A stretch of 64,000 nucleotides of DNA, from positions 1,178,001 through 1,242,000 of the forward strand of contig NZ_CP032317.1 in assembly GCF_003574965.1 (NCBI RefSeq), written 5' to 3'. Below are positions 1-62,081 of the stretch, one piece after another. This stretch comes from Hymenobacter oligotrophus (GTDB taxonomy: Bacteria > Bacteroidota > Bacteroidia > Cytophagales > Hymenobacteraceae). A program made the translations under genes and the position numbers. The notes under the pieces are model-generated. The model did not search any database. It was not told where the DNA came from and worked only from the letters and a program-made list of their open reading frames with translations. Position 1 is the first letter of the stretch. Every line of letters starts with the position of its first letter.

Positions 1-313
1 GCCCAGTAATCAATTGCGGCACGTGCACGCCTAGGTCCAGCGCAGGGAGCCAGTGCTGGTTTTCGGCATCGGTTAGGGCCCGGCCTTCCACGTATACGAT
101 GCGAAAGTAGTGTTCCAGCGCCGTGAGGTGCGCGAGCAATGCCCCCACCGTGTTCCAACCGGGTTGGTACTGCCAGTGCAACTGCTCGGAGCTAATCCGG
201 GCAATGTGCTGCAGCGTGGTTACGCGGGTATCCTCCAACATGGAACGCAGCAGGTTCAAAGCCTGATCTGGTGCGGAGCCCAGGGTTAGGTGAAAGGTAC
301 GCTGAAGAATCAT
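1..313 (-). CDS. DinB-like (DUF664-type) protein, N-terminal part
   Basis: The first 104 residues of a protein that runs off the left edge of the window. The ATG lies at 313. The visible part is helical and contains a segment, QPGWNTVGALLAHLTALEHY, that resembles the first metal-site helix of the DinB/YfiT four-helix-bundle superfamily, where a histidine in such a helix usually binds metal. Members of this superfamily act as thiol transferases, or their role is unknown; no specific reaction can be assigned here. The neighbouring gene at 443 is divergent, so the 129 bases between the two starts should hold both promoters. The family call is moderately sure, the function is not known. Confidence 0.65.
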   Translation of the reverse strand, partial: MILQRTFHLTLGSAPDQALNLLRSMLEDTRVTTLQHIARISSEQLHWQYQPGWNTVGALLAHLTALEHYFRIVYVEGRALTDAENQHWLPALDLGVHVPQLITG

Positions 314-442
314 GTCTCGTGAAGTGCAAAGTCCTGTTGCGCCTGGAGGGTAGCGTCGCATCACTGCCCGCACAGTTCACAATACTACACTTCTGACCCG
401 GCATGGCTTGAACCAAACCCCAAACACGGCATACATTGGGGT

Positions 443-1513
443 ATGAAACACGGCATGTGGATAGGCTTGCTGGGTTGGTTGCTAGCAAGCAGTGCAAACG
501 CCCAAACGTTGGCAGGCATTTGGCAAGGCGTCGAAACCGACCCCGGCGAGCCGGGTGCTACCTGGCCTGCCCTGCTGCGCGTGCAGCAAGGCAAGGGCAA
601 CGCCCTATTTGGCGTATTGTACCAAGAGGCCACCGGCCGCCCCAACGTAACCGTCACGTTTCAGGTACGGGCCACGCGCACGGCCACGGGCATGGCCCTG
701 GAACACGTGCGCAAGCTCAATGAAACCGGTGCCACGCCGTTCAGCTACTGGTGCGATGGCACCATTGCCTTTACTTATGATGCCAAGGAAGAAAAGCTGA
801 CCGGCCGCGCCGCCTACGAGCCCGTAGGCGACTGCGACAACGGCAGCTTTACGCTTTACCGCGTGAAGTTGAAATCGGCAGCCAAGGTAACGGCCGGTAC
901 GCTTACCACCATTCGGGTATCGGGGCGCGACGTGCGCTGGTACGCCGATGCCGACCTGAAGCAGCTCGTGAACACCGGCAACAGCTACCGTACCAAGCTC
1001 AGCAAAACCACTACTTTTTACCTCACGCAAGGCTTTTACCGCACGCGCGAAAGCGCCGTGGTACCCATTACGGTGCAGGCAAGCGGGGCGGCACCCAAGC
1101 CTAAACCCACGCCCGCCCCGGCGCCCAAGCCCACCCCGCCCGATACCACCCGCGCCGCCCCAGCGCCGCTTGTCATCAGCCCGAAACCGGTGGTGCTGCC
1201 GACGGTGCTGTTTAAACTGGGCACCCCCGAGCTGTTGCCCGAAGCCTTGCCGGCCCTAAACCAGCTCGCCGCCGAATTGCAAGCCCGCCCTACCCTGCGC
1301 CTGCTGGTGGCCGGCCACACCGACCGCATCGGTGAGCCCGACAAAAACCAGGCGCTTTCGGAGCAACGGGCCGAGGCGGTAAAGGCATATTTGCTGAAGG
1401 CTGGCGGCGTGGCACCGGAGCGCATCAGCACCGTGGGCTACGGCGACACACGCCCGCTTTACCCCTCGCCCGATGCCCGCAACCGCCGCGTGGAAGTATC
1501 GGAGGCGCCGTAA
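443..1513 (+). CDS. Secreted OmpA-domain protein with novel N-terminal region
   Basis: 356 residues. A signal peptide ends near residue 20 (ASSANAQT). Residues 22-145 form an unrecognised beta-rich region with a Cys pair (Cys104, Cys131) that could be disulfide-linked. Residues 150-212 look like a small Ig-like beta domain. A proline/lysine linker spans about 216-240. Residues 250-356 are an OmpA C-terminal, peptidoglycan-binding domain with GHTD at 291-294 and the NRRVE signature near 347-351. The protein is therefore probably periplasmic or outer-membrane associated and anchored to the cell wall. It lacks a recognisable barrel. It sits 371 bases before a second OmpA-domain gene on the same strand. 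The role of the N-terminal region is unknown. Confidence 0.8.
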   Translation: MKHGMWIGLLGWLLASSANAQTLAGIWQGVETDPGEPGATWPALLRVQQGKGNALFGVLYQEATGRPNVTVTFQVRATRTATGMALEHVRKLNETGATPFSYWCDGTIAFTYDAKEEKLTGRAAYEPVGDCDNGSFTLYRVKLKSAAKVTAGTLTTIRVSGRDVRWYADADLKQLVNTGNSYRTKLSKTTTFYLTQGFYRTRESAVVPITVQASGAAPKPKPTPAPAPKPTPPDTTRAAPAPLVISPKPVVLPTVLFKLGTPELLPEALPALNQLAAELQARPTLRLLVAGHTDRIGEPDKNQALSEQRAEAVKAYLLKAGGVAPERISTVGYGDTRPLYPSPDARNRRVEVSEAP

Positions 1514-1884
1514 GCGCGGGTACTGCGTCTCGGGCAGCCCACCGCATTGGTATTTGGAGCCCAGGGTATTACCCGAGCGTGAGTCGGCTTTCTACTACTT
1601 GTTCTGGGCATTCAGCTTAGCGCAACAACAATGTAACGCACTCCCCAAAAAATTACAGAGCCCAGGCGGTAATCAGATCAACACTATCTGCATTTTACCA
1701 ACTTGTTATTGCATATTATTTATATAATATGTAACATTACTTTCCGCCGCGTGATTTTGCGGCTGGTGGCCGCATTACCTGATGCCTTCCGCACAGTTGG
1801 CCGCCCGCTAACCTTTCGCGGTTAGGCGGGTATACGTGCCTACTCGCCATTGCCCAGCCTACTCCTTCACCCCGACCTCCACCG
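1514..1884. other. Intergenic region with AT-rich promoter-like stretch
   Basis: No convincing gene. Bases about 1670-1745 are strikingly AT-rich for this genome and contain TTGTTATTGCATATTATTTA and further TA steps, so this is the likely promoter zone for the gene at 1885, although no clean TAnnTTTG box is present. A small stem (CCGCC...TAACC / GGTTA...GGCGG, about 1801-1830) lies in the presumed leader. Confidence 0.4.
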
Positions 1885-3606
1885 ATGAAGCAGTTTGTAC
1901 AAACAATTCGGTTGCTTGCGCTGCCTGTGGCATTGCTGCCCGCGCTGCCGCACGCGGCCCATGCCCAAACGCCCGACCGACGGGCCAGCCTAGGGCTCAA
2001 CCTCAGCGCGCTTCAATACCAAGGCGATTTCGGCTCCGATTACTGGAAATTCGACCGCAGCTCGTACGCGCCGGGGCTGGCCGTAAACCTGTACCTCACG
2101 CGCGGCCTCGACCTGAACACGCAAGTGTTTTTTGGGGAGCTGACCGGCAACCGCAACCCCCAAACCCGCTTTACCACCACCTTGGTAAATGCCAACCTAG
2201 GGTTCAAGCTGAAGCTAAACAACGGCTGGGCCTTAAAGGAAAACGCCTTTTTTCAGCCCTACCTGCTGGTGGGCTCGGGGTGGTCGTATGCTAGCCGCAC
2301 GGGCCTGAACGACGGCAACCGCATCGACGAAGACAAGGGCTACGTTGATGTGATGGGCGGAGCGGGCATTAACCTGCGCCTAGGTGGCGGCGTGGGCTTG
2401 TTTGTGCAGAGCACCCAGCACCTGCCTATGGAGGCCAATTTCGACGGCGTACCCGAAAGCAACGTGCCCCGCTGGGCCGACCGCTTTTTGCAGCACACCG
2501 TGGGCCTGACGTTTAACCTGGGCCAGGCAGCCGATGCCGACGAAGACGGCGTAACCGACCGGCAGGACCGCTGCGCCAATACGCCACCGGGCGTGGAAGT
2601 AGACGAAAACGGCTGCCCGCCCGATGCCGATCAGGACGGCTTGGCCGACTACCGCGACAATTGCCCCAACGAACCCGGCACCGCCGACCTGCAAGGTTGC
2701 CCCGATAAGGACGGCGACGGCGTGGCCGATGGCAACGATACCTGCCCCGACGTGGCGGGCACCGAGGACCTAGGCGGCTGCCCCGACGCCGACCGCGACG
2801 GCGTAACCGACCGCGACGACAAATGCCCCGACACGCCCGTGAGCACCCAGGTTGACGCCAACGGCTGCTCGGCCGCTGAAACCCGCAGCACGACCGAACC
2901 CGACTCGGACGCCGACGGCGTGCCCAACAGCACCGACCGTTGCCCCAACAGCGCCGGACCGGCCGCCAACAACGGCTGCCCCGAGCTAAAGGCCGAAACC
3001 CGCCAGCGCCTGCGGGAGGCTACCCAATTTATCGGGTTCGAGCGCAACAAGGCCACGTTGCTGGCCTCGTCGTACGCTACGCTCGATACCGTTGCTCAAA
3101 TCCTGAACCAGTACCCCGATTACACGCTCAGCATAACGGGGCACACCGACAAGCAAGGACCGGCCGCCTTTAACCTGCGCCTTTCGCGCGAGCGGGCCGG
3201 TGCTGCCCGCAACTATTTGGTGGGCAAAGGCGTGGCCGAAGGCCGCATCCAGCAGCGCGGCTACGGCCCGCTCCACCCCGTGGCCGACAACGCCACCGAA
3301 ACCGGCCGCGTGCGCAACCGCCGCGTTGAGTTCGACATGTTCCTGAGCAGCTCGGCCAACCCCGCCGACGCCAAATACGGCCCCGAGCCTACCGCCGTAG
3401 CTCCGGCCAAACCTACGAAAGCAGCACCAGCTAAAAAGGCTACCATTCGCAAGGCGCCGGCCCGCAAAGCACCGGCCCGGAAGCCTGCCGTTGGGCGGCC
3501 GGCTGCCCCGGGCAAAGCGGCACCTAGGGCCAGCGCACCCCGCAAACCGGCTGCCAAGGCTCCGGCCCAAGCGCCCGTTCGCAAGGCCACGCCGCGCAAG
3601 CCGTAA
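1885..3606 (+). CDS. OmpA-family outer membrane protein with TSP3 repeats and basic tail
   Basis: 573 residues. A signal peptide ends near residue 28 (AAHAQT). Residues 30-215 are a predicted beta-barrel or beta-rich outer membrane part. Residues 216-366 carry about five thrombospondin type-3-like calcium repeats (DxDxDGxxDxxDxC). Residues 370-486 are the OmpA peptidoglycan-binding domain, with GHTD at 419-422 and NRRVE near 478-482. This architecture is common in Bacteroidota and links the outer membrane to the cell wall. The unusual part is residues 500-573, a low-complexity Lys/Ala/Pro/Arg tail (KKATIRKAPARKAPARKP-like) similar in composition to histone H1 or the C-terminus of bacterial histone-like proteins. 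The start is chosen because it gives a clean signal peptide. Confidence 0.9.
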   Translation: MKQFVQTIRLLALPVALLPALPHAAHAQTPDRRASLGLNLSALQYQGDFGSDYWKFDRSSYAPGLAVNLYLTRGLDLNTQVFFGELTGNRNPQTRFTTTLVNANLGFKLKLNNGWALKENAFFQPYLLVGSGWSYASRTGLNDGNRIDEDKGYVDVMGGAGINLRLGGGVGLFVQSTQHLPMEANFDGVPESNVPRWADRFLQHTVGLTFNLGQAADADEDGVTDRQDRCANTPPGVEVDENGCPPDADQDGLADYRDNCPNEPGTADLQGCPDKDGDGVADGNDTCPDVAGTEDLGGCPDADRDGVTDRDDKCPDTPVSTQVDANGCSAAETRSTTEPDSDADGVPNSTDRCPNSAGPAANNGCPELKAETRQRLREATQFIGFERNKATLLASSYATLDTVAQILNQYPDYTLSITGHTDKQGPAAFNLRLSRERAGAARNYLVGKGVAEGRIQQRGYGPLHPVADNATETGRVRNRRVEFDMFLSSSANPADAKYGPEPTAVAPAKPTKAAPAKKATIRKAPARKAPARKPAVGRPAAPGKAAPRASAPRKPAAKAPAQAPVRKATPRKP

Positions 3607-3683: not shown

Positions 3684-3760
3684 TTGCATTCAGAGCTTGC
3701 GGCACCTAGGGCGTAAGCAAAGAATGATGCATGCATAACAACTAATTAACATTAATGCCG

Positions 3761-4920: not shown

Positions 4921-5086
4921 GGTAACGCGTGACGGGTAACAGATAGCAAGTGCCCAGCCCTAGGTGCAGACGAGTGTGCTCAACCCATACCGGCGATGAG
5001 CAAGGTTGATTAGCTTAACTGCTTCGGCCGCACTAACTGCCCCCAGCAAACGGCCGCTTTCCGCCCGTTACCTGTCACGCATTACC
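4921..5086. repeat. Inverted-repeat-bounded intergenic element
   Basis: GGTAACGCGTGACGGGTAAC (4921-4940) is repeated in inverted form at 5067-5086 with 18 of 20 bases matching. Each arm is itself a near-direct repeat (GGTAAC...GGGTAAC). The interval includes one CCTAGGT motif. It looks like a small MITE- or REP-like element between two genes on the same strand. Confidence 0.45.
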
Positions 5087-5744: not shown

Positions 5745-7715
5745 ATGAGTGACACCAAAACTTTGTCCGAGGCTCCGACCACAACCTCGCACCACGCACA
5801 CACCGCCGTATCCACGGCGGGCTTGCTAATTGCCCTAGGCATCATCTACGGCGACATCGGCACCTCGCCCTTGTACGTAATGAAAGCCGTGGTACCGGGC
5901 CGCATCACCACCGACCTGGTGTACGGCGGCATTTCATGCGTGCTCTGGACGCTCACGCTGCAAACCACCATCAAGTACGTGCTGCTCACCCTCAACGCCG
6001 ATAACAACGGCGAAGGCGGCATTTTCTCGCTCTACGCCCTGGTGCGCCGGCGCGGGGGCTGGCTTTCGGCCGTGGCCATTGTGGGCGGCGCCGCCTTGCT
6101 TGCCGACGGCGTAATTACGCCGCCCATTTCGGTGTCGTCGGCCATTGAGGGGCTCGAGCGGGTGTACCCCGAAATCCAAACGGTGCCCATCGTTATTGCC
6201 ATCCTGGTGATGCTGTTTCTGCTGCAAAGCTTCGGCACCCAAATCGTAGGCAAAGCGTTCGGGCCCATCATGTTCCTGTGGTTTTCGATGCTGGCCACCC
6301 TGGGCGTGCTGGGCATTGTGCAGCACCCCGAAATTTTGCGGGCCGCCAACCCCTACTACGCCTACAATCTGCTCGTGAACACGCCGGGCGGTTTTTGGCT
6401 GCTGGGCGCCGTGTTCCTGTGCACCACCGGGGCCGAGGCCTTGTACTCCGACCTAGGGCACTGCGGCAAGGGCAACATCCGCATCAGCTGGGTGTTCGTG
6501 AAAACCTGCCTGCTGCTCAACTACTTCGGGCAAGGCGCATGGCTGATCACCCACCAGGGCGAAATGCTCAACGGCCGCAACCCCTTCTTCGAGATGATGC
6601 CCTCCTGGTTCCTGCTCATCGGCATTGGCATTGCTACCGTGGCAGCCATTATTGCCTCGCAGGCGCTCATCACGGGCTCGTTTACGCTGGTAGCCGAGGC
6701 CATTCGCCTGAACATGTGGCCCAAGGTAAAGCTGAACTACCCCACCGACGTGAAGGGCCAGCTGTACGTGCCCAGCATGAACCGCCTGCTGCTGCTGGGC
6801 TGCATCGCCGTGGTGCTGTACTTCCGCAAGTCCGAAAACATGGAAGCGGCCTACGGCCTGGCCATTACCGTTACCATGCTCATGACTACCCTGCTGCTCT
6901 CGATGTGGCTGCGTACCAAGCGCGTGGCCATGCCGCTGGTGGTGTTGTTTTTGGTGGTGTACCTGGCCATCGAGGGCTCGTTCCTGGTTGCCAACCTCAT
7001 CAAGTTTCCGCACGGCGGCTGGGTATCGGTGGCCATTAGCCTCTGCTTGATTGCGGTGATGTACGTGTGGATGCGCGCCTTCTACATCAAGCGCCGCCTC
7101 ACCGAGTTCGTGAAAGTTGAGCCGTACATGGATGCGCTCAAGCAGCTTTCGGGCGACGAATCGGTGCCGAAATACGCCACACACCTGGTGTTTATGACAT
7201 CGGCCGAGCGCCAAACCGAAATCGAGTCGAAGATCATCTACTCCATCTTCCAAAAGCGCCCCAAACGCGCCGATATCTACTGGTTTGTGCACGTGGATAC
7301 CACCGACGAGCCGTACACCATGGAGTACAAGGTAACCGAGTTGGCCAACGACGACGCCTACCGCATTACCTTCCGTTTGGGCTTCCGGGTCGAGCAGCGC
7401 ATCAACCTATACTTCCGCAAAGTGGTGGAAGACCTGGTGCGCAACAAAGAAGTGGACATCACCTCTCGCTACGAGTCGCTGAGCAAGCAGCACGTAACCG
7501 GCGACTTCCGCTTTGTGGTGCTCGAGAAATTCCTCTCGGTTGAAAACGAGTTCCCCTTCGTCGAGAACCTCGTGATGCAGGCCTACTTCTACATCAAGCA
7601 GTTTATCGCGTCCGAAGACAAGTACTTCGGGCTCGATACCTCGTCGGTGAAAATCGAGAAGGTGCCGCTCATCATCACGCCCCCGAAAACCGTCGATCTG
7701 AAGCGCGTGTACTAA
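5745..7715 (+). CDS. kup: Kup-family potassium uptake transporter
   Basis: 656 residues, the normal length for KUP/HAK/KT transporters, which import K+ with protons across the inner membrane. Family signatures are plain: GDIGTSPLYV at residues 36-45, the NNGEGGIFSLYALVRR stretch near 85-103, and about twelve hydrophobic helices up to about residue 455, followed by a soluble C-terminal domain of about 200 residues. The start at 5745 (MSDTKTLSE) is chosen over an in-frame ATG at 5715 because the promoter box at 5688 and family length fit better. It is followed by its own terminator and is probably monocistronic. Confidence 0.95.
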   Translation: MSDTKTLSEAPTTTSHHAHTAVSTAGLLIALGIIYGDIGTSPLYVMKAVVPGRITTDLVYGGISCVLWTLTLQTTIKYVLLTLNADNNGEGGIFSLYALVRRRGGWLSAVAIVGGAALLADGVITPPISVSSAIEGLERVYPEIQTVPIVIAILVMLFLLQSFGTQIVGKAFGPIMFLWFSMLATLGVLGIVQHPEILRAANPYYAYNLLVNTPGGFWLLGAVFLCTTGAEALYSDLGHCGKGNIRISWVFVKTCLLLNYFGQGAWLITHQGEMLNGRNPFFEMMPSWFLLIGIGIATVAAIIASQALITGSFTLVAEAIRLNMWPKVKLNYPTDVKGQLYVPSMNRLLLLGCIAVVLYFRKSENMEAAYGLAITVTMLMTTLLLSMWLRTKRVAMPLVVLFLVVYLAIEGSFLVANLIKFPHGGWVSVAISLCLIAVMYVWMRAFYIKRRLTEFVKVEPYMDALKQLSGDESVPKYATHLVFMTSAERQTEIESKIIYSIFQKRPKRADIYWFVHVDTTDEPYTMEYKVTELANDDAYRITFRLGFRVEQRINLYFRKVVEDLVRNKEVDITSRYESLSKQHVTGDFRFVVLEKFLSVENEFPFVENLVMQAYFYIKQFIASEDKYFGLDTSSVKIEKVPLIITPPKTVDLKRVY

Positions 7716-7740
7716 CGCCTACGCTCCCTAGGTACTTGAA

Positions 7741-7869: not shown

Positions 7870-9441
7870 ATGCCCAAATTTACTCTTATAGCGGCTGCGC
7901 TTTTGGCGCTGGCTGCCTGTGCCCGCACGCCCGATGCCGAGCTGGCACAACCCAACCCCGCCCTAGGTGGCGAAGCCCTCAGCACCCAACAGCTTGACGA
8001 GCAGATTTGGGAAAAGGTGAAAGCCACCAACGCGCCCTTCGACTGGAGCCAGGCCACCGACCACGTGGTGTGGAGCGCCTTGCAGCGCTCTGACCAGGTG
8101 CTGAGCGTGGGCTACGCCCCCGCCGACAAATGCAGCCCGCAAGCCGCTTTGCCACCTAGGGCCGGCGCCGATGCTGCCTACCAGCAAGCCCGCGAACAAG
8201 TGCTGCGCCTGATCATCAGCAGCGAGCAGCAAGCCGACCCCAGCCTTGCCGCCGAACAAATTGTGGTGTTTGGCGAAGAAACCCTGCCCGTGCTCAACGT
8301 GCGCGTGCGGCAGCTGAGCACCGTGCAGCGCCTGCGCCGCTCGCCGCTGGTTCGCTACGCCGAGCCCATGGGCTTCGACCCCTATCGGCCGCGCACCAGC
8401 ACCGCCGCCCAACGCAGCCTGAGCAGCAGCGGCTGCGGCTCCAACACCGCCACGCCCAACCTAGTAGCCGGCTCCGACTACACCGTGCTCAGCAACGGCA
8501 GCAAATCCTCCTGGAACCAGGCCGATGTGTACCACGGCGTGCGCGCGGCGTGGTCGCAGAGCACGGGCCAGGGCGTAAAGCTGGTGGTAATTGACACGGG
8601 CGCCTCGGATGCGCAGGAAAACCTCGGCAGCGCATTTAACCAGGGCCTAAGCGAGGGCCGCACCGTGGAGCGGCTGGTAACGCTGCCGCGTACTACCTTT
8701 TTCGGCATACCCACGGGCCCGGTAGAAACGCCCAACGACCCGTGCGGCCACGGCACCAGCATGGCCGGCGCCGCCGCCGCCCCGCGCGGCACCGATGGCG
8801 CCTCGGTGGGCATTGCTTACAACGCCAACCTCGTTTCTATCCGGGCCGCGGCCGACGTGTTTTTGGATGAAAGCCGCGAGGTGAAGGGTGTATCGGATGC
8901 GTTTGTGCTTGCCGGCAACCGCCCCGATGTGCGCATCATCAGCATGAGCATGGGCCGCGTCACGAGCAGCTCGCAAATGGCCGATGCCATTCGGTACGCA
9001 CATGCCAGAGGCAAGCTGATCTTCTGCGCCGCCGGCACTTCGTTTGATTGGTCGGCGGGCTGGGTTGGGGTAATATTCCCGGCTAGCCTGCCCGAGGCAG
9101 TGGCCGTAACCGGCATGAAGGACAACCTTGCCTCGCGCTGCGACGAGTGCCACGTGGGCTCCGATGTAGAGTTTACCGTGGTAATGCAGCGCAGCAACAA
9201 CCTTCGGCCCCTGTCGCTGGCCATGAGCGGCGATGCACCTAGCACCGTGGGCGGTTCGTCGGTCTCAACCGCCTCGATGGCCGGCATGGCGGCCGTGGTG
9301 TGGAGCAAGTACCCCACCGAAACCCGCGAGCAAATAAAGCAGCGCCTGGTAGCCGCCAGCACCAACGCCACCAACCGCAGCCCCAGTTTTGGCTACGGGC
9401 GCGTAAACCTCGCCAAGGCCGTGGGCGTGCTGGTGCAGTAG
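7870..9441 (+). CDS. Subtilisin-like (S8) serine protease lipoprotein
   Basis: 523 residues. The N-terminus is a lipoprotein signal with lipobox LAAC (Cys17), so the enzyme is probably lipid-anchored. Residues 100-170 look like an I9-type propeptide. The S8 catalytic triad is complete: Asp242 (VVIDTGA), His294 (CGHGTSMAG) and Ser469 (STASMAG, in place of the usual GTSMAAP). The protease domain spans about 220-520. Cysteine pairs (188, 292; 423, 426) may form disulfides, which fits an exported protein. The start at 7870 gives the lipobox at the right spacing. It probably degrades external or periplasmic protein. Confidence 0.9.
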   Translation: MPKFTLIAAALLALAACARTPDAELAQPNPALGGEALSTQQLDEQIWEKVKATNAPFDWSQATDHVVWSALQRSDQVLSVGYAPADKCSPQAALPPRAGADAAYQQAREQVLRLIISSEQQADPSLAAEQIVVFGEETLPVLNVRVRQLSTVQRLRRSPLVRYAEPMGFDPYRPRTSTAAQRSLSSSGCGSNTATPNLVAGSDYTVLSNGSKSSWNQADVYHGVRAAWSQSTGQGVKLVVIDTGASDAQENLGSAFNQGLSEGRTVERLVTLPRTTFFGIPTGPVETPNDPCGHGTSMAGAAAAPRGTDGASVGIAYNANLVSIRAAADVFLDESREVKGVSDAFVLAGNRPDVRIISMSMGRVTSSSQMADAIRYAHARGKLIFCAAGTSFDWSAGWVGVIFPASLPEAVAVTGMKDNLASRCDECHVGSDVEFTVVMQRSNNLRPLSLAMSGDAPSTVGGSSVSTASMAGMAAVVWSKYPTETREQIKQRLVAASTNATNRSPSFGYGRVNLAKAVGVLVQ

Positions 9442-9504: not shown

Positions 9505-9525
9505 GTGCGGGCTGTACCTAGGGCG

Positions 9526-10164
9526 TTAGAAGATGCGCTTGCGGGTGTCGAGCTCTTGCAGCATGCGCACGAACTCGGCATCGGCCGCGGCGCGCTGCTC
9601 GGCCCCTAGGTGCTTGGCGCTGCCGATCATAAATGGCTCGTACACCTCCATGCCGCAAAAAGCAAACGTGCCGCGCAGCAAGTGGCTCAGGGTCGATTCG
9701 AGCGTGGGAAGCGTTACGCCGTCCCACAACTCGTTGGGCGTACCCGAGGTCAGCGACACCAGCGCCTTTTTGCCGGCCAGCTCTTTGGTGCCACCGTAAG
9801 CAAAGCCCACGGCCAGCACGCGGTCGATCCAGCCTTTCAGGATGGCCGGCACCGAGTGCCACCACAACGGAAATTGCAGCATCAGCAAATCGGCACGGCG
9901 CAGCTTATCCATCTCAGCGCTAATGGCCGGCTCGAAACTATCGGCCGCCACGCCTGCCCGTTGGGCGGCCTGCAAGTCAAAGAAATCGGCCGCGTAAGCT
10001 GGCTCCAGGTCGGCGGGGCCCGCAATGGCGGCAAAGCGCTGTTGGTACAAGTCCGATACTTCAACGGTGTGGCCGGCAGCGGTTAGGGTTTCAACCGCCA
10101 AGCGGGCCAAGTGCCCGTTGTACGACGCCGGCTCGGGGTGAGCCAGCACAAGCAGAACGTTCAT
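9526..10164 (-). CDS. NAD(P)H:quinone oxidoreductase, flavodoxin-like fold
   Basis: 212 residues. MNVLLVLAHPEPASYNG is the FMN/FAD-binding start of the flavodoxin_2 family (MdaB, KefF, NQO1), and FPLWWHSVPAILKGWIDRV is its second flavin/quinone motif. These enzymes reduce quinones by two electrons with NAD(P)H and protect against redox cycling; some regulate K+ efflux channels. The start at 10164 is chosen over an upstream ATG because the flavodoxin strand begins at residue 2. A KefF role would need a KefC partner, and none is seen here. Confidence 0.88.
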   Translation of the reverse strand: MNVLLVLAHPEPASYNGHLARLAVETLTAAGHTVEVSDLYQQRFAAIAGPADLEPAYAADFFDLQAAQRAGVAADSFEPAISAEMDKLRRADLLMLQFPLWWHSVPAILKGWIDRVLAVGFAYGGTKELAGKKALVSLTSGTPNELWDGVTLPTLESTLSHLLRGTFAFCGMEVYEPFMIGSAKHLGAEQRAAADAEFVRMLQELDTRKRIF

Positions 10165-13990: not shown

Positions 13991-14199
13991 TAAAAAGCGG
14001 TTTTTTTGAAGCCCTGGGCAGCTTTTCGCAGCATAAGGCTGAATGTCAGCCGATTTATTTTGCCCGCTTGCCAGCTCGCTCCCGCCGGCCCTAGGTATTG
14101 GTACGCTACTTGTCTGGGTAAGCCTAGCCTGCATATTGCAGAGTTAAGTTGCTTTTGTATATTTTTCCCTCCCAACCTCTTTTCACCCCCTATTTAACG

Positions 14200-15892: not shown

Positions 15893-15951
15893 CTAGGCTG
15901 GCGCTTACTGGCCCTAGGTGCCGCTTTGGCCCGGAGCCGGACCGGGGCCGA

Positions 15952-20389: not shown

Positions 20390-20409
20390 GTGCCCAAAGC
20401 CGCAAACAG

Positions 20410-23408: not shown

Positions 23409-25529
<2,121 letters not shown>

Positions 25530-41414: not shown

Positions 41415-41464
41415 GCGCTGCTTGGCTCCTTACCCCTTGGCTGACCTAGGGAATTGCTTACAGT

Positions 41465-43063: not shown

Positions 43064-43248
43064 GGTTGAGGCTGATGAGGGAATGAGGAGGTAAAATGGT
43101 AGTTGATGCGGCGCTGAAGATAGAAGCCCGGCGCTCATCGGCAATTACAACGTTGCCTAGGTACCAATCCGGGCCGAAAGCAAGAACACGCGCCTGCCAA
43201 GTAAGCAAGCGCGTGCAGTGCCCGAAGTGGCGCGGCCCTAGGTGCCGC

Positions 43249-50038: not shown

Positions 50039-50095
50039 CCCCCAATCAAAAGCCCTAGGTTATTTACCTAGGGCTTTTGATTGGGGGCTACTTGC
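50031..50095. terminator. 30-bp perfect hairpin that includes the stop codon and two CCTAGG motifs
   Basis: Arms 50031-50060 and 50066-50095, thirty bases each, perfect, with a 5-base loop TATTT. The left arm contains the last codon and TAG stop of the TPR gene (50036-50038) and CCCTAGGT; the right arm contains ACCTAGGG. It lies between convergent genes and is T-rich in the loop only. Confidence 0.75.
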
Positions 50096-50879: not shown

Positions 50880-51001
50880 ACGCTGGCTTGGTATTGAGGT
50901 ATTGAAGGTAAAAACGTAATTATACCAAGCTCAACAATAATGCCATACCGCGTGGCGGTAAGCTTTGCGCGGCTGCTGCGTTGCCAAATGGCAGTGTGCA
51001 C

Positions 51002-53132: not shown

Positions 53133-53399
53133 GGCTTGCTAAATATGAGCGGCCGGCCTCGGAGAACCGGTCGGAAGTTGGTTTCGGGCTGACAACTATC
53201 AGCGGCCGGGCGAAGTTACACAGGCGCCGCCTTTGTCATCGTTTGCCGCCTGGTTTCGGTTCCCGAAAACGCCTCGGGGCGAGGCTTTGCTTAGGAGCGT
53301 GTGGGCTGTAGCGCGAAAATCCGTTGCCTACGCCGACCTTCGGTACCGCGCCACTTCTTCGCGCCCTAGGTGCCCGGCAGCTTGCCACCGCAAACACCC

Positions 53400-54589
53400 T
53401 CAGCGGGCCTGCTGAAAGCGCTGCGTAGGCTGCCACACCGTGGTGCGAATGCCGCGCAGGTAGCGCCAGAAACCCAAAGCCAGCGCGGCGTTCATGCTGT
53501 AGAAGTGCGTGATAAAGCGCAACAACCGCAGGTGCACGCCCGCGCGTTTCAGGGCTCTGTCGAGCAGCAGCAAGGTGGGCAGTGCCAGTTGCCCCAGCAG
53601 CATGAGGGCGTAAACCCAATGTGCCCCCCGGGCCACCAGCAGCGCGTTGGCACCTAGGGCCAGCAACAGCAGCAGCGGCGTAAGCCAGCGCAATACTTTG
53701 TGCGACCAGAACGCAAACGGAACACCGCGCCACACCGGCCACAGCAAACTGGCAAACTCGCCTAGGTTCTGAAAGTTGCCGGCTGCAATGCGGGCCTTGC
53801 GCCGAAACTCCTCGGGCAGGTGGTCCGACACGTCCTCGTAGCACACCGCGTTTAGCTCGTTAATGGCTTGGTACCCATCGCGCAGCACGGCCATGGTAAT
53901 GTAAAAGTCATCGACCAGAAACGCCGCCGGGGCTGGGTGGTAGCAGGCGCGGCGCACAGCAAAGCAGCCGCCAAATGCCCCCATCATGCCGCCCCACACC
54001 ACGCCCTCTTGGTACTTGATGAGGTTTTCGCGCTCGAGGTACGCCTTCTCCTGGCCCGAAATACCCTCGGCGTGGTGCTCGGGGTTGATGATGTTGCCGC
54101 CCACTAGCCCGATGCGCGGGTTGTGAAAATGCTTTACCAGGTGATAGAGCGTGTCGGGGGCAAAAAACACGTTGGCATCGGTGAGCACCAGCACGGGCGC
54201 CGTGGCCTGCCGCGACAGGGCATCGATTACGCCGGGTTTGCCTTGCCGTTGGGTGTACGCTTCGAAGCGCAGCTGCGGAAATTCACCTTGAAGCTGCCTT
54301 ACCAGGGCATTGGTGCGGTCGGAGGAGCAATCGGAACCGATGTAGAAGGTGAGCCGATCGAGCGGATACGTGGTCCGGAAGGTACTGCGGATCTTTTCTT
54401 CGATTACCTGCTCCTCGTTGTGCACGGCCAGCAGCACATCCACCGCCGGCAGCTCGTGGCTTAGCGGAGCATACACCTCTTGGTTTTGCTTCCGGCCTTT
54501 AGCGAAGCGGTTCAGCAGCAACGGAAACAGCACGTAGGTGTGCGCCACCAACACGATGCTCGCCCACAACAGTATGGCCAGGGCTAGGT

Positions 54590-57145: not shown

Positions 57146-58327
57146 ATGCTAATGGCACTCAAACCACAACGCGCCCTGCTTGCGTTGGCCGGCTTGTATG
57201 TTCTGTACCTGGCCGGTGGGCTTGTGCTAGCCTCGCAAGCGGTTATCGACCGGGTGTATTTTTTTCCTGGCTATTCTATTAAACGCCCGATGCCCGATGA
57301 ATCGGGTTTTTCGCCCGACGGGCCCGTGGTGCAAAACTTGTCCGGGGGTGTGGCCCTTAGCCGCCGCATTGTGCCCGGAAACCTAGGCAGCGTGGTACGC
57401 ATCGACACGCTGCGCTCGGCCTCCGACTCGCTTACCTGCTTTGTGCAGGAAACCGGCCTGGCATTCCGTTTCCCGCGGCACGCGTTTCCGGCTGCCGAAC
57501 CGGCCGAGTACCCCGCGCCCGCCCGCATGCTGGTGGTGTCGGATATCGAGGGCAACTTCAAAGGGTTGCAGCAGTTGCTGCAGGGCGCCGGCGTGGTGGA
57601 CGCGCAAGCCCGCTGGCGCTTTGGCGCGGGCCACCTCGTATTTGTGGGCGATATGTTCGACCGCGGCCTGCAGGTAACCGAGTGCCTGTGGCTGCTCTAC
57701 AAGCTGGAGCACGAGGCCGCGCAGGCCGGCGGCAAGGTGCACTTCATCCTGGGCAACCACGAGGTGATGAACCTGACCGGCCACTACAAATACCTGCGCC
57801 GCAAATACCGCCACAACGCCGATTCGCTTGGCCTCGACTACGCCCGCTGGTACGCTCCCGATACCGAGTTAGGCCGCTGGCTGCGCTCCAAAAACGTAGT
57901 GGAGCGCATCGGGCCCACGCTGTTCGTGCACGGCGGCCTCAGCCCCGAGGTTGCCGCGCTACGCCTGCCCCTTGTGCAGCTCAACGCGCTTACGCGCCGT
58001 AGCCTCGATGCATCTCAACACGCCGCGCCCCGCCCCGCCGAGCAGCTGGTGCGCAACCCCAAGCTCAGCCCCGATTGGTACCGCGGCATCGCGCAGGAAG
58101 AAGCCCCGGCGGCGCACGTAGCGGCGGTGCTGCGGCAATACGGCGCTACGCGAATGGTTATTGCCCACACGCCCGTCGAAGAAATTACCCCGCTTTACAA
58201 CGGGCAGGTTGTTGCTATTGACTTACCGCACCAAGAGCATACGAAACAAGGATTTGGGCAGGCGCTGTGGGTCGAAGGCGGAAGGTTTTCGGTCGTCGAC
58301 AACCTAGGGCGCAAGCAGGCATTGTAG
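57146..58327 (+). CDS. Metallophosphoesterase (calcineurin-like), membrane-anchored
   Basis: 393 residues. A hydrophobic helix (12-32) anchors or exports it. The phosphoesterase motifs are LVVSDIEGNFKG (where the usual DxHG is DIEGN), VGDMFDRG, LGNHEVMNL, VHGGLSP and AHTPVE. All five blocks of the fold are present, so activity is likely. It may remove phosphate from a nucleotide, peptide or lipid. The ATG at 57146 is preferred; an alternative ATG lies two codons further on. Divergent from the channel gene, with 148 bases between starts. Confidence 0.88.
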   Translation: MLMALKPQRALLALAGLYVLYLAGGLVLASQAVIDRVYFFPGYSIKRPMPDESGFSPDGPVVQNLSGGVALSRRIVPGNLGSVVRIDTLRSASDSLTCFVQETGLAFRFPRHAFPAAEPAEYPAPARMLVVSDIEGNFKGLQQLLQGAGVVDAQARWRFGAGHLVFVGDMFDRGLQVTECLWLLYKLEHEAAQAGGKVHFILGNHEVMNLTGHYKYLRRKYRHNADSLGLDYARWYAPDTELGRWLRSKNVVERIGPTLFVHGGLSPEVAALRLPLVQLNALTRRSLDASQHAAPRPAEQLVRNPKLSPDWYRGIAQEEAPAAHVAAVLRQYGATRMVIAHTPVEEITPLYNGQVVAIDLPHQEHTKQGFGQALWVEGGRFSVVDNLGRKQAL

Positions 58328-58392: not shown

Positions 58393-60432
58393 CTACCGCG
58401 ATATAATGGTACCCAGCAGCCCCGCCAGCTGCATATCCAATTGCTTCAGGCTCTTAAAAATCGACATCTGCGCGAAGTATTCCTCCACGTTGTTCGGGTC
58501 GAGCGAGTTCATGGTGTTGAGGCAGTCGGTCAGCTCGCGCTCCACGTTGCACTTGTTCAGGCGCAGAATGGCGTTGTCGCAGGCTTCCTGCAGCATATCC
58601 AGCTCGCGCGGCACGTAAATGCTGTGCGTAATCCAGTTGGGGCTCAGTTCGTGCGGCTCGGTCACCAAATCGGTAATCACGGCCCGGATGTCGCTGCGCT
58701 CGTGGCGCACCAGCTCCCGGGCATCGGGAAAGCGCCCCGCACCTAGGGCTTCGCGGCACAGATGCATCAGGTCGGCGTAAATGGGCGTCCGGAAGGGCGT
58801 TTCGTCGGTTTGGCTTAGCAGGTACTCGGCCACGGTGTGCTCGTTGGCCAGCTGCTGCGCCGGGTAGTTCAGGATGAGGCGTACCACCTCCTTCTCGCAG
58901 GCTTGCTGAACGTCGGGTATCGGCTCGGCCTCCACCACGTCCTCCGTAGGCTCGTCGCCCATGAAGCCATATGCCTCGTCGGGCATGGCATCGTCGGGCT
59001 GCGGGCGCGGCGGTTGCTGACCCAGGCCCGTAAGCTGGCCGCCGGGCTGCACGGCCGCGGTGCTGCTTTGGCTGCGGGTGCTGCTGGCAGCTCCGCCCCC
59101 CGACGACCTAGGCACTCCCTGCTTCACGAGCTTGTTGTACTCGGAAATCAGCACCTGCTCGTCGATGTGGAAGGTGCCGGCGGTTTGCTGCAAAAACACC
59201 TGCCGCTTCAGCGGGTCGGGCACTTTGGCGATGCTCTGCAGCACGTCGCGAATGGCCTCGGCTTTCTTTACCGGGTCGTTGGCGGCTTCGCGGGCCGCGA
59301 GCTTGGTTTTAAAGGAGATAAAGTCCTGGCTGTTGGCCTCCACGAACTCCTGGAAGCGCTTGTCGCCCACCTTGCGGATGTAGCTGTCGGGGTCGTCGCC
59401 GTCGGGGAACAACACCACGCGCACGTTCAGGCCGTTCTCCAGAATAATATCGAGGCCGCGCAAAGCTGCCCGAATACCGGCCGCGTCGCCGTCGTACAGC
59501 ACCGTTACGTTGTCGGTGTAGCGGGCAATCAGCCTGATCTGGCCTTCGGTGAGCGAGGTGCCCGACGAGGCCACCACGTTTTTGATGCCGCCTTGGTGCA
59601 GGCTGATGACATCGAGGTAGCCCTCCACGAGGTAGCACAGCTCCTCCTGCCGAATGGCCTGCTTGGCCTGGTACAGGCCGTACAGCACGTCGGATTTGTG
59701 GTAAATCTCCGACTCGGGCGAGTTCAGGTACTTGGCCCCGGCTTTTTCGTCGCGGCGCAAGGTACGGGCACCGAAGCCCACCACGCGGCCCGAAATGTTG
59801 TGGATCGGGAACATCACGCGGCCCCGGAAACGGTCGTAGCGGCGGCCGTCTTCCTCGCGCTTAATCACGAGGCCGGTTTTTTCGAGGTACTTCGCGTCGA
59901 AACCCGCTTTCTGGGCCTCGTTGAGCACGTCGTCCCACTTATCGAGCGAGTAGCCGAGCTCGAAGGTCTCGATGGTAGCCTGGTTCAGGCCGCGCTCCTT
60001 GAGGTAGGCCCAGCCGATGCTCTCCCCTTCTTCCGACTCCTGCAGCAGCTTTTTGTAGCGGTTTTTTGCCCAATCCGACACGATGTACTGCGAGTCGCGT
60101 TCGTTTTGGGCCAGCTGCTGCTCCGGCGTCTTTTCTTCTTCCTTAATCTCGATGCCGTACTTCTTGGCCAGCCACTTAATGGCCTCGGGGTAGCTCACCG
60201 ATTCCACGTCCATCACGAAGCGCACCACGTCGCCGGCTTTGCCGCAGCCAAAGCACTTGTAAATGCCCTTGGCCGGCGCCACCGAAAACGACGGCGACTT
60301 TTCGTGGTGAAAAGGGCAACAGGCCCACAAGTTCTGGCCTTTTTTCTTGAGCGTGACAAAGTCGCCTACTACCTCCACAATGTCGGCGTAGTGCAAAACT
60401 TGGTCGATGGTTTCTTTCGGAATGAGGGCCAC
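58393..60432 (-). CDS. dnaG: DNA primase
   Basis: 679 residues from GTG 60432. A TTG at 60447 is an alternative, but it is very near the predicted transcription start and would add LSSAV; the family start is MxLIPKETI. The CHC2-type zinc site is Cys39, His42, Cys60 and Cys63. The TOPRIM domain lies at about 250-340 (LVEGYLDVI; YDGDAAGIRAA). The C-terminal third after about residue 445 includes a low-complexity Gly/Ser/Gln linker and a helical helicase-interaction domain. It makes primers for replication. All expected parts are present. Confidence 0.96.
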   Translation of the reverse strand: MALIPKETIDQVLHYADIVEVVGDFVTLKKKGQNLWACCPFHHEKSPSFSVAPAKGIYKCFGCGKAGDVVRFVMDVESVSYPEAIKWLAKKYGIEIKEEEKTPEQQLAQNERDSQYIVSDWAKNRYKKLLQESEEGESIGWAYLKERGLNQATIETFELGYSLDKWDDVLNEAQKAGFDAKYLEKTGLVIKREEDGRRYDRFRGRVMFPIHNISGRVVGFGARTLRRDEKAGAKYLNSPESEIYHKSDVLYGLYQAKQAIRQEELCYLVEGYLDVISLHQGGIKNVVASSGTSLTEGQIRLIARYTDNVTVLYDGDAAGIRAALRGLDIILENGLNVRVVLFPDGDDPDSYIRKVGDKRFQEFVEANSQDFISFKTKLAAREAANDPVKKAEAIRDVLQSIAKVPDPLKRQVFLQQTAGTFHIDEQVLISEYNKLVKQGVPRSSGGGAASSTRSQSSTAAVQPGGQLTGLGQQPPRPQPDDAMPDEAYGFMGDEPTEDVVEAEPIPDVQQACEKEVVRLILNYPAQQLANEHTVAEYLLSQTDETPFRTPIYADLMHLCREALGAGRFPDARELVRHERSDIRAVITDLVTEPHELSPNWITHSIYVPRELDMLQEACDNAILRLNKCNVERELTDCLNTMNSLDPNNVEEYFAQMSIFKSLKQLDMQLAGLLGTIISR

Positions 60433-60868: not shown

Positions 60869-60941
60869 TGTTGTTCTTGGCCGTCGAGCAAACTCTGGCC
60901 GGCTTTTGCGGGTTTTCCGCATTAGCCCACCGATTCGGAAT

Positions 60942-60949
60942 TACCTTTG
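60942..60949 (+). promoter_or_regulatory. Bacteroidota -7 box for mrp
   Basis: TACCTTTG, exact match, 34 bases upstream of the ATG at 60984. A TTTTCC at 60913-60918 is a candidate -33 element. Confidence 0.55.
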
Positions 60950-60983
60950 CCGACGCGGCGGCCAAGCCCGCCCCTCTACTCCC

Positions 60984-62081
60984 ATGAGCATTACCCAAGA
61001 AGCTGTACTGAAAGCCCTGAGCTACGTGGAGGAACCCGACCTAGGGAAAGACCTCGTGACGCTCAATATGATTGAAGACGTGCAGATTGACGGCCAGAAG
61101 GTTTCCTTCACCGTGATTCTGACCACGCCCGCCTGCCCGCTCAAAGACCTCATCCGCAACGCCTGCGTGCGCGCCATCCAAACGATGGTTGACAAGGACG
61201 CAGAGGTGACGGTGAACATGACCTCGCGCGTGACGACCATGCGCCAGAACCGCGACATCCTGCCCGGCGTGAAGAACATCGTGGCCATTGCCTCGGGCAA
61301 AGGCGGCGTGGGCAAAAGCACCGTTACGGCCAACCTGGCCGTGGCCCTGGCCCGCTCGGGTGCCAAAGTAGGCATTGTGGACGCCGATATTTCCGGCCCC
61401 TCGATGCCGGTAATGTTCGGCGTGGAGGACGCCCGCCCGCACGTATTCCAGACCCCCGACGGCCGCAACCTCATTGAGCCCATCGAGCGGTTCGGTGTGA
61501 AAATCATGAGCATTGGCTTTTTGGCCCCGGCCGAATCGGCCATTGTGTGGCGCGGCCCCATGGCTTCGTCGGCCCTAAAGCAGTTTATCACCGAAGTTGA
61601 TTGGGGCGAGCTGGACTACCTGCTGCTCGATATGCCGCCCGGCACCTCGGACATTCACCTGACGATGGTGCAAACGGTGCCCGTTACCGGCGCCGTAATT
61701 GTAACCACGCCGCAAAAAGTAGCCCTGGCCGACGCACAGAAGGGTTTGCAGATGTTCCGCCAGCCGCAAATCAACGTGCCGGTGCTGGGCGTTATCGAGA
61801 ACATGGCGTGGTTTACGCCCGCCGAGCTGCCCGAAAACAAGTACTACATCTTCGGGCAAGGCGGCGGCCACGAGCTGGCGCGCAAGCACGATGTGCCGCT
61901 GCTGGGCGAAATTCCGCTGGTACAGGGCATTCGCGAAAACGGCGACGCCGGCATTCCGGTGGTGTTGCAAAGCACCTCGGCGGTGGCCCCGGCGTTCGAG
62001 CAGCTGGCCGAAAATCTGGCGCAGCAGGTGTCTATCCGCAACAACATCGCGCCGCGCACGCAGGTAGTTGAAGTAAAGTAA
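60984..62081 (+). CDS. Mrp/ApbC-family iron-sulfur cluster carrier ATPase
   Basis: 365 residues. Residues 1-80 are the MIP18 (DUF59) domain (SITQEAVLKALSYVEEPDLGKDL). The P-loop ATPase follows: deviant Walker A SGKGGVGKST with Lys106 and Lys111, then DADISGPSMP and DMPPGTSDIHL. These enzymes carry Fe-S clusters to apoproteins. The C-terminal CxxC that binds the cluster in many relatives is absent here (ENMAWFTPAELPENKYY in its place). The start at 60984 is supported by the promoter box. A NifU-like gene follows after 59 bases. Confidence 0.93.
   Translation: MSITQEAVLKALSYVEEPDLGKDLVTLNMIEDVQIDGQKVSFTVILTTPACPLKDLIRNACVRAIQTMVDKDAEVTVNMTSRVTTMRQNRDILPGVKNIVAIASGKGGVGKSTVTANLAVALARSGAKVGIVDADISGPSMPVMFGVEDARPHVFQTPDGRNLIEPIERFGVKIMSIGFLAPAESAIVWRGPMASSALKQFITEVDWGELDYLLLDMPPGTSDIHLTMVQTVPVTGAVIVTTPQKVALADAQKGLQMFRQPQINVPVLGVIENMAWFTPAELPENKYYIFGQGGGHELARKHDVPLLGEIPLVQGIRENGDAGIPVVLQSTSAVAPAFEQLAENLAQQVSIRNNIAPRTQVVEVK

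Follow-up and report, generated by a model that had tools for sequence, protein, structure and literature searches.

An iterated CTAG-centred word in Hymenobacter chromosomes as a possible lineage-specific DNA recognition signal

Results and discussion

Occurrence of the word in the window and the genome

The window analysed here, a 64,000-nucleotide stretch of Hymenobacter oligotrophus DNA, carries 53 exact copies of the octamer ACCTAGGG, 31 on the forward strand and 22 as the complement CCCTAGGT, which lie in genes such as ligA as well as between convergent ORFs (Table 1). It is the most frequent 8-mer of the window, where Markov models of order 0, 1, 2 and 3 predict only 2.5, 1.3, 1.1 and 1.8 copies, so that the excess persists at third order. 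An earlier note on this DNA had tallied these copies, together with 79 of CCTAGG, and both counts proved exact; its remark that the octamer is often extended by C likewise holds on both sides (C before in 35 and after in 36 of the 53).

Table 1. Coordinates of all exact matches to the octamer in the window
Feature	Position	Strand	Basis	Remark
ACCTAGGG site	2195..2202	+	exact match	
ACCTAGGG site	3522..3529	+	exact match	
ACCTAGGG site	3704..3711	+	exact match	
ACCTAGGG site	4958..4965	-	exact match	
ACCTAGGG site	6451..6458	+	exact match + alignment	outgroup consensus ACCTGGGC
ACCTAGGG site	7726..7733	-	exact match	
ACCTAGGG site	7961..7968	-	exact match + alignment	retained in G007 and G004
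ACCTAGGG site	8154..8161	+	exact match	
ACCTAGGG site	9516..9523	+	exact match	
ACCTAGGG site	9604..9611	-	exact match + alignment	retained in G007 and G004
ACCTAGGG site	10563..10570	+	exact match	
ACCTAGGG site	10617..10624	+	exact match + alignment	outgroup consensus GCCCAGCG
ACCTAGGG site	11121..11128	+	exact match	
ACCTAGGG site	14089..14096	-	exact match	
ACCTAGGG site	14846..14853	-	exact match + alignment	G007 and outgroups read GCCCAGGG
ACCTAGGG site	15011..15018	+	exact match	
ACCTAGGG site	15912..15919	-	exact match	
ACCTAGGG site	17932..17939	+	exact match	
ACCTAGGG site	18202..18209	+	exact match	
ACCTAGGG site	20384..20391	-	exact match	
ACCTAGGG site	20902..20909	+	exact match	
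ACCTAGGG site	22916..22923	-	exact match	
ACCTAGGG site	24416..24423	-	exact match + alignment	outgroup consensus AGCGCGGG
ACCTAGGG site	24889..24896	+	exact match + alignment	lies in ligA; ACCTGGGC is the outgroup consensus; by codon reading, two synonymous changes within Leu-Gly
ACCTAGGG site	29135..29142	+	exact match	
ACCTAGGG site	29368..29375	+	exact match	
ACCTAGGG site	29563..29570	+	exact match + alignment	outgroup consensus GCCCAGCG
ACCTAGGG site	30303..30310	-	exact match	
ACCTAGGG site	31621..31628	-	exact match	
ACCTAGGG site	32674..32681	-	exact match	
ACCTAGGG site	35139..35146	-	exact match	
ACCTAGGG site	35773..35780	+	exact match	
ACCTAGGG site	36148..36155	+	exact match	
ACCTAGGG site	37723..37730	-	exact match	
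ACCTAGGG site	38328..38335	-	exact match	
ACCTAGGG site	39360..39367	+	exact match	
ACCTAGGG site	41444..41451	+	exact match + alignment	without aligned base in all five compared relatives
ACCTAGGG site	41585..41592	+	exact match	
ACCTAGGG site	43236..43243	-	exact match	
ACCTAGGG site	45077..45084	+	exact match	
ACCTAGGG site	46134..46141	+	exact match + alignment	three outgroups read GCCCGAGC, five changes
ACCTAGGG site	46866..46873	+	exact match	
ACCTAGGG site	47682..47689	-	exact match	
ACCTAGGG site	48580..48587	-	exact match	
ACCTAGGG site	49159..49166	-	exact match	
ACCTAGGG site	50053..50060	-	exact match + alignment	left arm, inverted pair between convergent ORFs; ACCCAGGG in G004
ACCTAGGG site	50066..50073	+	exact match + alignment	right arm, inverted pair between convergent ORFs; ACCCAGGG in G004
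ACCTAGGG site	51000..51007	+	exact match	
ACCTAGGG site	53364..53371	-	exact match	
ACCTAGGG site	53652..53659	+	exact match + alignment	retained in G007 and G004
ACCTAGGG site	58302..58309	+	exact match	
ACCTAGGG site	58741..58748	+	exact match	
ACCTAGGG site	61039..61046	+	exact match	

The word is not confined to this contig stretch: the 4.19-Mb genome from which the window derives (G000) contains 2,980 copies, 1,493 and 1,487 in the two orientations, and the reversed word 0 and 1 times. Letters of G000 were examined for 800 kb, for the window and for smaller contigs totalling 85 kb. Across the 800 kb the excess is about 44-fold over the order-2 expectation; CCTAGG is 30-fold commoner than in motif-poor kin. 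The best context is nearly saturated, as 610 of 721 instances of ACCTNGGG are the motif, compared with 1 of 44 in motif-poor kin. The enrichment is larger than first described, and both genome-wide iteration and asymmetric flanks are upheld. The reported absence of CCCTAGGG holds in the window (0 copies) and nearly so in G000 (13 against 610 of ACCTAGGG in 800 kb), but not in the relative G072, where this octameric palindrome is the commonest form (237 of 546 CCTAGG).

Coding context and origin of the sites

Genic sites sit in Leu-Gly and Pro-Arg reading frames, frame 0 of the motif being excluded simply because a stop codon would result, a pattern that might suggest that codon choice for these dipeptides makes the motif. 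We give this explanation practically no chance, as it is already refuted by the context dependence of CTA and by the higher intergenic density: Leu-Gly encoded with CTN uses CTA in 681 of 1,016 cases after C and 42 of 662 after G (14 of 91 after A, 11 of 45 after T), and with genes called as ORFs picked by third-position GC, sites per kb number 4.65 between convergent genes, 2.94 between tandem genes, 1.73 between divergent genes and 1.12 inside genes. The suggestion that protein sequence is adapted to the motif went too far, since it often appears unchanged; codon reading indicates that the outgroup octamers GCCCAGCG and ACCTGGGC can reach the motif by synonymous changes. In 800 kb of G000, ACCTAGGG is found 125 times in sense and 243 times in antisense, and ACCTAGGC 141 and 102 times, skews that we put down to codon constraints as the putative cause. 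An RNA-level signal was rejected, both senses being present (53 sense and 72 antisense sites in three regions).

Sites substitute for outgroup octamers that differ at about 3 of 8 bases, and the flanks are continuous around them where relatives align, which led us to reject an inserted element. The site-creating changes comprise 67 transitions and 64 transversions, compared with 1146 and 1346 in the background. Once present, sites are conserved: among sites that could be aligned, one sister species retains 40 of 52 and another 31 of 49, where about 21 and 18 are expected, and retention likewise exceeds that of matched Leu-Gly octamers (21/33 versus 6/19 and 22/32 versus 5/19).

Patchy distribution and dialects

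Among 204 Hymenobacteraceae genomes, CCTAGG occurs 5,325-8,806 times in nine, 1,209-2,331 times in four and at most 888 times in the other 191, and no octamer of comparable strength stands out in the motif-poor G001-G003 or G005. The CTAG core is constant and the flanks vary by lineage (CACCTAGGGC, AACCTAGGTT, GCCCTAGGGC, GCCTAGGC), the preferred half-site flanks being, by dialect, AC/CC, AC, CC, AG+AC, GC and GG/CG, in a comparison where many site sets derive from related genomes and are thus non-independent. G000 and G004 share one dialect. In the window's clade, as delimited by nucleotide identity, the two flanks of CTAG differ and the site is therefore not an octameric palindrome; the dialect of G030 is palindromic (ACCTAGGT). 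A chromosomal CTAG word present in thousands of copies with lineage-specific spelling looks like a previously unrecognised signal telling chromosomal DNA from other DNA. In agreement with the earlier note, no description in this phylum was found in the literature searched on the motif, on Bacteroidetes uptake sequences or signals, or on over-represented CTAG.

CTAG avoidance also differs by lineage: of 40 Hymenobacteraceae loci, most have observed/expected ratios of about 0.1-0.35, one has 0.58 and seven have 0.85-1.4. This could favour a mutation or repair bias writing CCTAGG, either Vsr-like or through relief of the avoidance. We consider such a bias very improbable: sites arise by all kinds of substitution, the 44-fold and 30-fold excesses are no return to parity, spacing in G000 is even, and Vsr (PF03852) is absent from seven of the nine motif-rich genomes. 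Its presence in just two of these nine, and in 3 of 12 other genomes, led us to reject Vsr as the common cause.

Site architecture, spacing and plasmids

Sites in the window's clade are asymmetric and are accompanied, some 26 bp upstream, by a weak box: in 800 kb of G000, 60 of the 610 sites have TGCC at -26, against 4.9 expected, and in G007 and G004 a comparable stretch rich in C and T lies between about -27 and -23. No such box was seen in G072 or G030, which have palindromic dialects, and a stem-loop as its basis was rejected for want of Watson-Crick covariation. As the earlier note had held, there is no Chi- or KOPS-like polarity along 800 kb: 320 sites are forward and 290 reverse, and every one of the ten 80-kb blocks contains both orientations, as assessed by block rather than by mapped replichore.

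Spacing in G000 is even, with a variance/mean of 0.70 at 2 kb that none of 1,000 Poisson simulations reached and that compares with 0.95-1.25 for four control words; sites show mild mutual repulsion up to about 500 bp, and the evenness is weaker in G072. CCTAGG pairs 33 bp apart number 11 in G000 against 1.6 expected and were not seen in G072 (546 sites) or in smaller samples; of the 21 pairs spaced by less than 60 bp in 800 kb of G000, 14 are arranged head-to-head. The plasmid contigs of G000, confirmed by plasmid-type genes, hold 0 copies of ACCTAGGG in 84.9 kb, and those of G007 hold 1 in the 200 kb examined; in G123, contigs C6 (unclassified) and C7 have densities of 0.30/kb, which is intermediate, and 0.15/kb. 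The bare plasmids may be mere recent arrivals.

These features could reflect chromosome organisation or segregation, in which a nucleoid or condensin-like protein would bind CTAG sites occurring roughly every 0.7 kb and would need even coverage of the chromosome but not of other DNA. The even spacing and repulsion, the nearly bare plasmids, the palindromic core and the 33-bp pairs, which suggest a symmetric complex, are consistent with this; however, such functions are usually conserved, and the full signal occurs in only nine of 204 relatives. Further, an orientation pattern is absent along 800 kb, and the convergent-gene enrichment equally fits a merely tolerated signal. On balance we view this alternative as possible but unlikely.

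The patchy distribution, suggestive of an acquired determinant, and the near restriction of sites to the chromosome could also point to a self-marker sparing the chromosome from an acquired nuclease or from plasmid/phage defence, as Chi does from RecBCD. Yet the bare plasmids share the same cells, Chi-like orientation polarity is missing and no nuclease was identified, making this improbable.

A HIP1-type origin, through a cognate DNA methyltransferase acting together with methylation-dependent repair (the Elhai model), is suggested by the shape of the motif, which like the HIPs described in PMC4390886 is an iterated octamer built on a 4-bp palindrome and takes alternate forms in related genomes. 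Protein families were searched in 21 to 27 of the 204 genomes. Among PF00145, PF01555, PF02384 and PF02086, G000 has one PF02384 match only and G004 one PF01555 match only, so that these two genomes of one dialect have none of the four families in common and the model is not supported; PF02086 occurs in 0 of 13 motif-enriched genomes (nine high, four intermediate) and 5 of 14 others. We accordingly rejected these methylases as the common cause on family distribution. A scan of 864 kb of G000 for amino-methylase motifs gave five ORFs, none with a SAM-binding pattern. A methylase would also reach the plasmids, which are nearly bare, and the asymmetric flanks and upstream box argue against it as well, leaving little probability for such an origin. 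Of the roles that had been listed for the motif, methylation and a HIP1-like mutational product are thus not supported, and an uptake signal or nucleoid site remain.

A putative chromosomal recognition signal

Most probably the chromosomal word serves a putative CTAG reader, be it in uptake or in organisation of the chromosome. We tentatively propose that the motif works throughout the genome as a lineage-specific signal for DNA recognition built on CTAG, preferably of an uptake type, though we hold this well short of probable. The retention of CTAG while flanks change and the bipartite asymmetric site argue for it by analogy with DUS and USS; genome-wide occurrence, patchiness across the family, equal orientations, convergent-gene enrichment, head-to-head pairs, even spacing, conservation, bare plasmids and mixed substitution types also argue for it. 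A putative sequence-specific reader of double-stranded DNA would recognise CTAG with lineage-specific flanks, binding asymmetrically in the window's clade, where a second, weak contact would lie some 26 bp upstream; a gene for this reader was not found. Signal-bearing chromosomal alleles would be favoured site by site, with an effective scaled strength that at equilibrium would be about ln(610/13.7) = 3.8. In the preferred form, kin DNA with the word would be preferentially taken in or recombined, causing the word to accumulate on the chromosome by selection or molecular drive, and plasmids, which would not recombine with kin chromosomes, would stay bare. We infer a single reader family beneath all dialects and an advantage acting via DNA exchange. 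With still less assurance, we posit that, through a CTAG-reading protein family of drifting flank specificity, the word serves some Bacteroidota lineages as a chromosome identity tag. It would be a signal for uptake or self-recognition that works without pili, has at least five dialects and was apparently acquired repeatedly within a single family.

Against the uptake reading, none of 21 genomes gave a match to PF00437, the ATPase family of type IV pili and type II secretion, while a control search was positive in 14 of 14. The known uptake route is therefore missing, the word is not a member of the known uptake systems, and uptake through type IV pili was rejected for lack of this ATPase. ComEC (PF03772), found in all 27 genomes examined, is equally present in motif-poor ones and explains nothing. 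The lack of the upstream box in G072 and G030 and of the 33-bp pairing in G072, the less even spacing in G072, the possibly recent arrival of the plasmids and the intermediate density of contig C6 also count against uptake, and no report of competence in Hymenobacter was found in the literature searched.

Comparison with known iterated words

The density of DUS and USS is about one site per kb. Their dialects share invariant inner cores, USS being discontinuous and up to 32 nt long and DUS pairs occurring at terminators, according to passages in PMC3630211 and PMC12616744. Judged by these passages, the DUS of Neisseriaceae and USS of Pasteurellaceae resemble the CTAG word in having dialects around an invariant core, a placement in permissive intergenic DNA and inverted pairs located at terminators, and USS also in a weaker, discontinuous element about two helical turns away; DUS and USS are lacking from genomic islands as the CTAG word is nearly absent from plasmid contigs. 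In contrast, the CTAG word lacks the pilus ATPase match, has a palindromic core and reaches full strength in nine of 204 family genomes.

Few features of bacterial DNA are as strange as iterated genome words, and a function for HIP1 has yet to be settled. In the present family, relatives carry either thousands of sites or next to none, with spelling varying by group; consequently gene content should allow the determinant to be mapped, and gains and losses should allow the function to be tested. An uptake signal, if true, would be one without type IV pili, and a chromosome-organising signal one whose specificity drifts.

HIP1 occurs once per 1,131 bp in Synechocystis and is replaced by other palindromes in some cyanobacterial relatives, as parts of PMC4390886 and PMC6604393 report. 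Insofar as these parts describe them, HIP1 and its alternates are, like the CTAG word, highly iterated octamers around a 4-bp palindrome; the CTAG word differs in its phylum, in having no methylase common to two same-dialect genomes (four families searched), in having an asymmetric, two-part site within the window's clade and in being nearly absent from the plasmid contigs of two strains. With Chi it shares shortness, over-representation and, in the window's clade, a non-palindromic form, but it differs in being without strand polarity and in having a palindromic core and palindromic dialects in relatives.

Abundance of the motif in the window and across the family

The high iteration of CCTAGG claimed in the earlier note was upheld, with 79 copies in the window, including 31 of ACCTAGGG, its commonest 8-mer, and 22 of the complement CCCTAGGT. 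The octamer excess survives Markov models (2.5, 1.3, 1.1 and 1.8 copies expected at orders 0, 1, 2 and 3 versus 31 + 22), and the C extension of the flanks, which had also been proposed, is real on both sides of the window sites. The iteration likewise holds genome-wide, as the source genome of H. oligotrophus (G000; 4,188,814 bases, 4 contigs) contains 1,493 + 1,487 copies, and 0 + 1 of a reversed-word control. Within the genus, three of eight genomes carry 2,808-3,106 copies of the octamer and the remaining five 8-20. Among 204 genomes of Hymenobacteraceae from six genera, nine have more than 300 copies of ACCTAGGG, the next-highest having 90; these belong to two genera (3/8 genomes of g1 and 6/120 of g4). 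The same nine contain 5,325-8,806 CCTAGG cores, and the other 195 contain 1,209-2,331 (four genomes), 507-888 (eight) or 54-468 (183), with at most 465 in every genome of the remaining four genera. As a control for these family counts the reversed word has a flaw, since many of the genomes have few GGATCC to begin with. Family members contain between 0 and 645 GGATCC each, and words that include GATC are heavily depleted in the window (both-strand counts: CGATCG 8 versus 54.5 expected, GCGATC 1 versus 39.6), which suggests a separate lineage-specific avoidance. Literature searches, limited to open papers, found no published description of the motif.

The octamer almost saturates its best context: A is present at 610 of the 721 ACCTNGGG contexts in 800 kb of G000, versus only 1/44 in 280 kb of motif-poor relatives. 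For palindromic contexts with A, counts by place are 237/304 CCCTNGGG in G072 and 38/45 ACCTNGGT in G030, two further motif-rich genomes; the corresponding strand counts, with A-sites tallied on both strands, are 474/541 and 76/83. Most one-base variants at positions 1-7 in G000 occur about as often as expected or less; A5C (64 versus 36), G7A (20 versus 6.6), T4C (41 versus 29) and A1G (42 versus 28) are in moderate excess. Position 8 is loose (C 336 versus 29 expected, A 71 versus 6). If the sites are at equilibrium, the ratio 610/13.7 would imply that each site is under selection or drive with a scaled strength of about 3.8.

Dialects of the motif

The spelling differs among motif-rich genomes, with no single form common to all. 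The window's clade (G000, G004 and G007) uses CACCTAGGGC; 800 kb of G000 has, besides the 610 ACCTAGGG, 336 ACCTAGGC, 71 ACCTAGGA, 17 ACCTAGGT and 13 CCCTAGGG, and the scarcity of the last two relative to the first indicates dependence between the two flanks. The form in G030 is the palindromic ACCTAGGT (38 in 60 kb versus 0.8 expected), G036 and G123 use A(C/G)CTAG(C/G)T forms, and G088 and G104 a mixture. In G072, which uses CCCTAGGG and CCCTAGGC, flank pairs over 400 kb match independent half-sites (C/C 237 versus 226 expected, C/G 186 versus 201). Three of the four intermediate genomes were read for dialect, with G041 left out: GCCTAGGC is preferred in G043 and G137, and also in H. fodinae, and no clear octamer was found in the 40 kb read of G129.

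In most of 40 loci from named Hymenobacteraceae (L086-L124 and L133, with L094 and L095, two ends of one contig, giving identical counts) the observed/expected ratio of CTAG is about 0.1-0.35; one locus has 0.58 and seven have 0.85-1.4. Two of these seven, H. mucosus (L102) and YC55 (L104), showed no strong CTAG flank preference; there, unlike in most relatives, CTAG avoidance has been lost without an iterated signal. Two loci both titled Hymenobacter sp. BT559, L114 and L110, differ sharply in dialect, with one CCTAGG in one and 41 in the other in 22 kb; one of the two may be mislabelled or come from a different organism. L114 prefers GGCTAGCC and CCCTAGCG forms.

Origin and maintenance of sites

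Of the sites that align in syntenic DNA, G007 has 40 of 52 unchanged and G004 31 of 49, versus about 21 and 18 for random octamers. None is common with the outgroups (0/32 in G001, 0/27 in G002, 0/33 in G003 and 0/24 in G005 aligned). Compared with codon-matched Leu-Gly octamers lacking the word, motif sites are kept more often in both G007 (21/33 versus 6/19) and G004 (22/32 versus 5/19); seven other CCTAGG octamers were kept in 0/7 and 1/7 cases. At 46 reconstructable sites, a non-independent set combined from three related genomes, the outgroup octamer lies at a mean distance of 2.85 from the motif (distance 1 in two only), versus 1.29 for random octamers with similar flank divergence. The changes creating sites include both transitions (67; background 1146) and transversions (64; background 1346), and some are silent by codon reading, e.g. 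GCG CTG GGC to GCC CTA GGT. Together these data indicate that sites were built by ordinary mutations and then kept, not written by a single mutational chemistry.

Anatomy and chromosomal placement

The site in the window's clade has a second part, a weak GSTSCY consensus spanning -28 to -23 that is strongest in intergenic DNA (T 0.48 at -26 and C 0.55 at -24; n=186). TGCC occurs exactly at -26 in 60/610 ACCTAGGG sites of G000 versus 4.9 expected, and in 41/242 intergenic and 28/611 genic sites. A similar C/T-rich stretch precedes sites in G007 and G004, displaced by about one base in the latter; the bases of the box were compared with their mirror bases and do not covary. G072 has a weak T/C bias at -16 instead of a box at -26, G088 and G104 have T at -27/-26, and no upstream box was seen in 60 kb of G030. 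CCTAGG pairs at 33-bp distance number 11 versus 1.6 expected, and 14 of 21 close pairs (<60 bp) are head-to-head.

Site density is 4.65 per kb between convergent genes, 2.94 between tandem genes, 1.73 between divergent genes and 1.12 within genes; three control words show the opposite placement, being denser inside genes than outside. At the inverted pair in the table, G004 shows the same T-to-C change in both arms, which stay complementary, and this suggests that the pair may be used as a terminator. The skews of genic sites tabulated with it are probably due to codon constraint.

Coordinates of an inverted motif pair and of the region surveyed for sense of genic sites
Feature	Sequence	Position	Observation
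Inverted motif pair	window	50053-50073	between convergent ORFs
Genic sites (L166-L205)	G000 C1	1-800000	ACCTAGGG antisense 243, sense 125; ACCTAGGC sense 141, antisense 102

Chromosomal density over 800 kb of G000 is 0.76 ACCTAGGG and 1.42 CCTAGG per kb. Its contigs C2-C4 (84,907 bases), which carry plasmid-type genes (a Rep3 initiator on C2, TraM and DUF4138 on C3, a TraG-type coupling protein and a relaxase on C4), contain no ACCTAGGG and three CCTAGG. Contigs C2 and C3 of G007, classed as plasmids on size alone, have one ACCTAGGG and 17 CCTAGG in the 200 kb read. C6 of G123 is intermediate (18 CCTAGG in 60 kb; C7 has 3 in 20 kb and the main contig 45 in 60 kb). The simplest account is a putative reader, a sequence-specific DNA-binding protein recognizing CTAG plus lineage-specific flanks, which would act on the chromosomal alleles that carry them.

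Nearly as likely as the uptake-type reading discussed below is a reader of CTAG sites that organizes the chromosome. Spacing in G000 is more even than random, with variance/mean of 0.70, 0.67 and 0.60 at 2, 5 and 10 kb; values this low arose in 0, 0.1 and 0.5% of Poisson simulations, respectively. The departure is not significant at 20 or 40 kb. For four control words the ratio at 2 kb is 0.95-1.25. Spacing in G072 is even at 2 kb only (0.81, a value that 1.7% of simulations reached) and becomes clustered by 40 kb (2.07); evenness thus does not extend generally to larger scales. The mixed orientation reported for the window was sustained, both senses occurring in all ten 80-kb blocks of G000.

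Candidate genes and known systems

For a reader acting on chromosomal alleles, the closest functional parallel is the uptake sequence. Passages of PMC3630211, PMC7371117 and PMC12616744 describe for the uptake sequences of Neisseriaceae (DUS) and Pasteurellaceae (USS) the features on which the parallel rests, namely dialects around an invariant inner core, absence from genomic islands, inverted pairs at terminators and, in USS, a discontinuous second element. However, the motif does not qualify as DUS/USS, since no match to the pilus ATPase (T2SSE, PF00437) was found in the genomes examined here (0/21). By shape the nearest known system is HIP1, the iterated octamer of cyanobacteria, as portrayed in parts of PMC4390886 and PMC6604393, but its association with a methylase fails here for the families tested (PF00145, PF01555, PF02384 and PF02086), none of which is common to G000 and G004 despite their same dialect. 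Searches covered 21 genomes (nine motif-rich) or 27 (13 motif-enriched, including four intermediate): PF00145 occurs in 2/9 motif-rich genomes, PF01555 in 4/9, Vsr (PF03852) in 2/9, PF02384 in 8/9 versus 10/12 others, PF02086 in 0/13 motif-enriched genomes versus 5/14 others, and ComEC in 27/27.

Other dispersed words

The short dispersed words GTCATGCTGA and AGATGCTTCG occur six times each in 60 kb versus 0.1 expected (L075-L080; G072 and G088), and CATCCTGA 13 times in the window versus 0.6 expected, which hints at a distinct family of small interspersed repeats.
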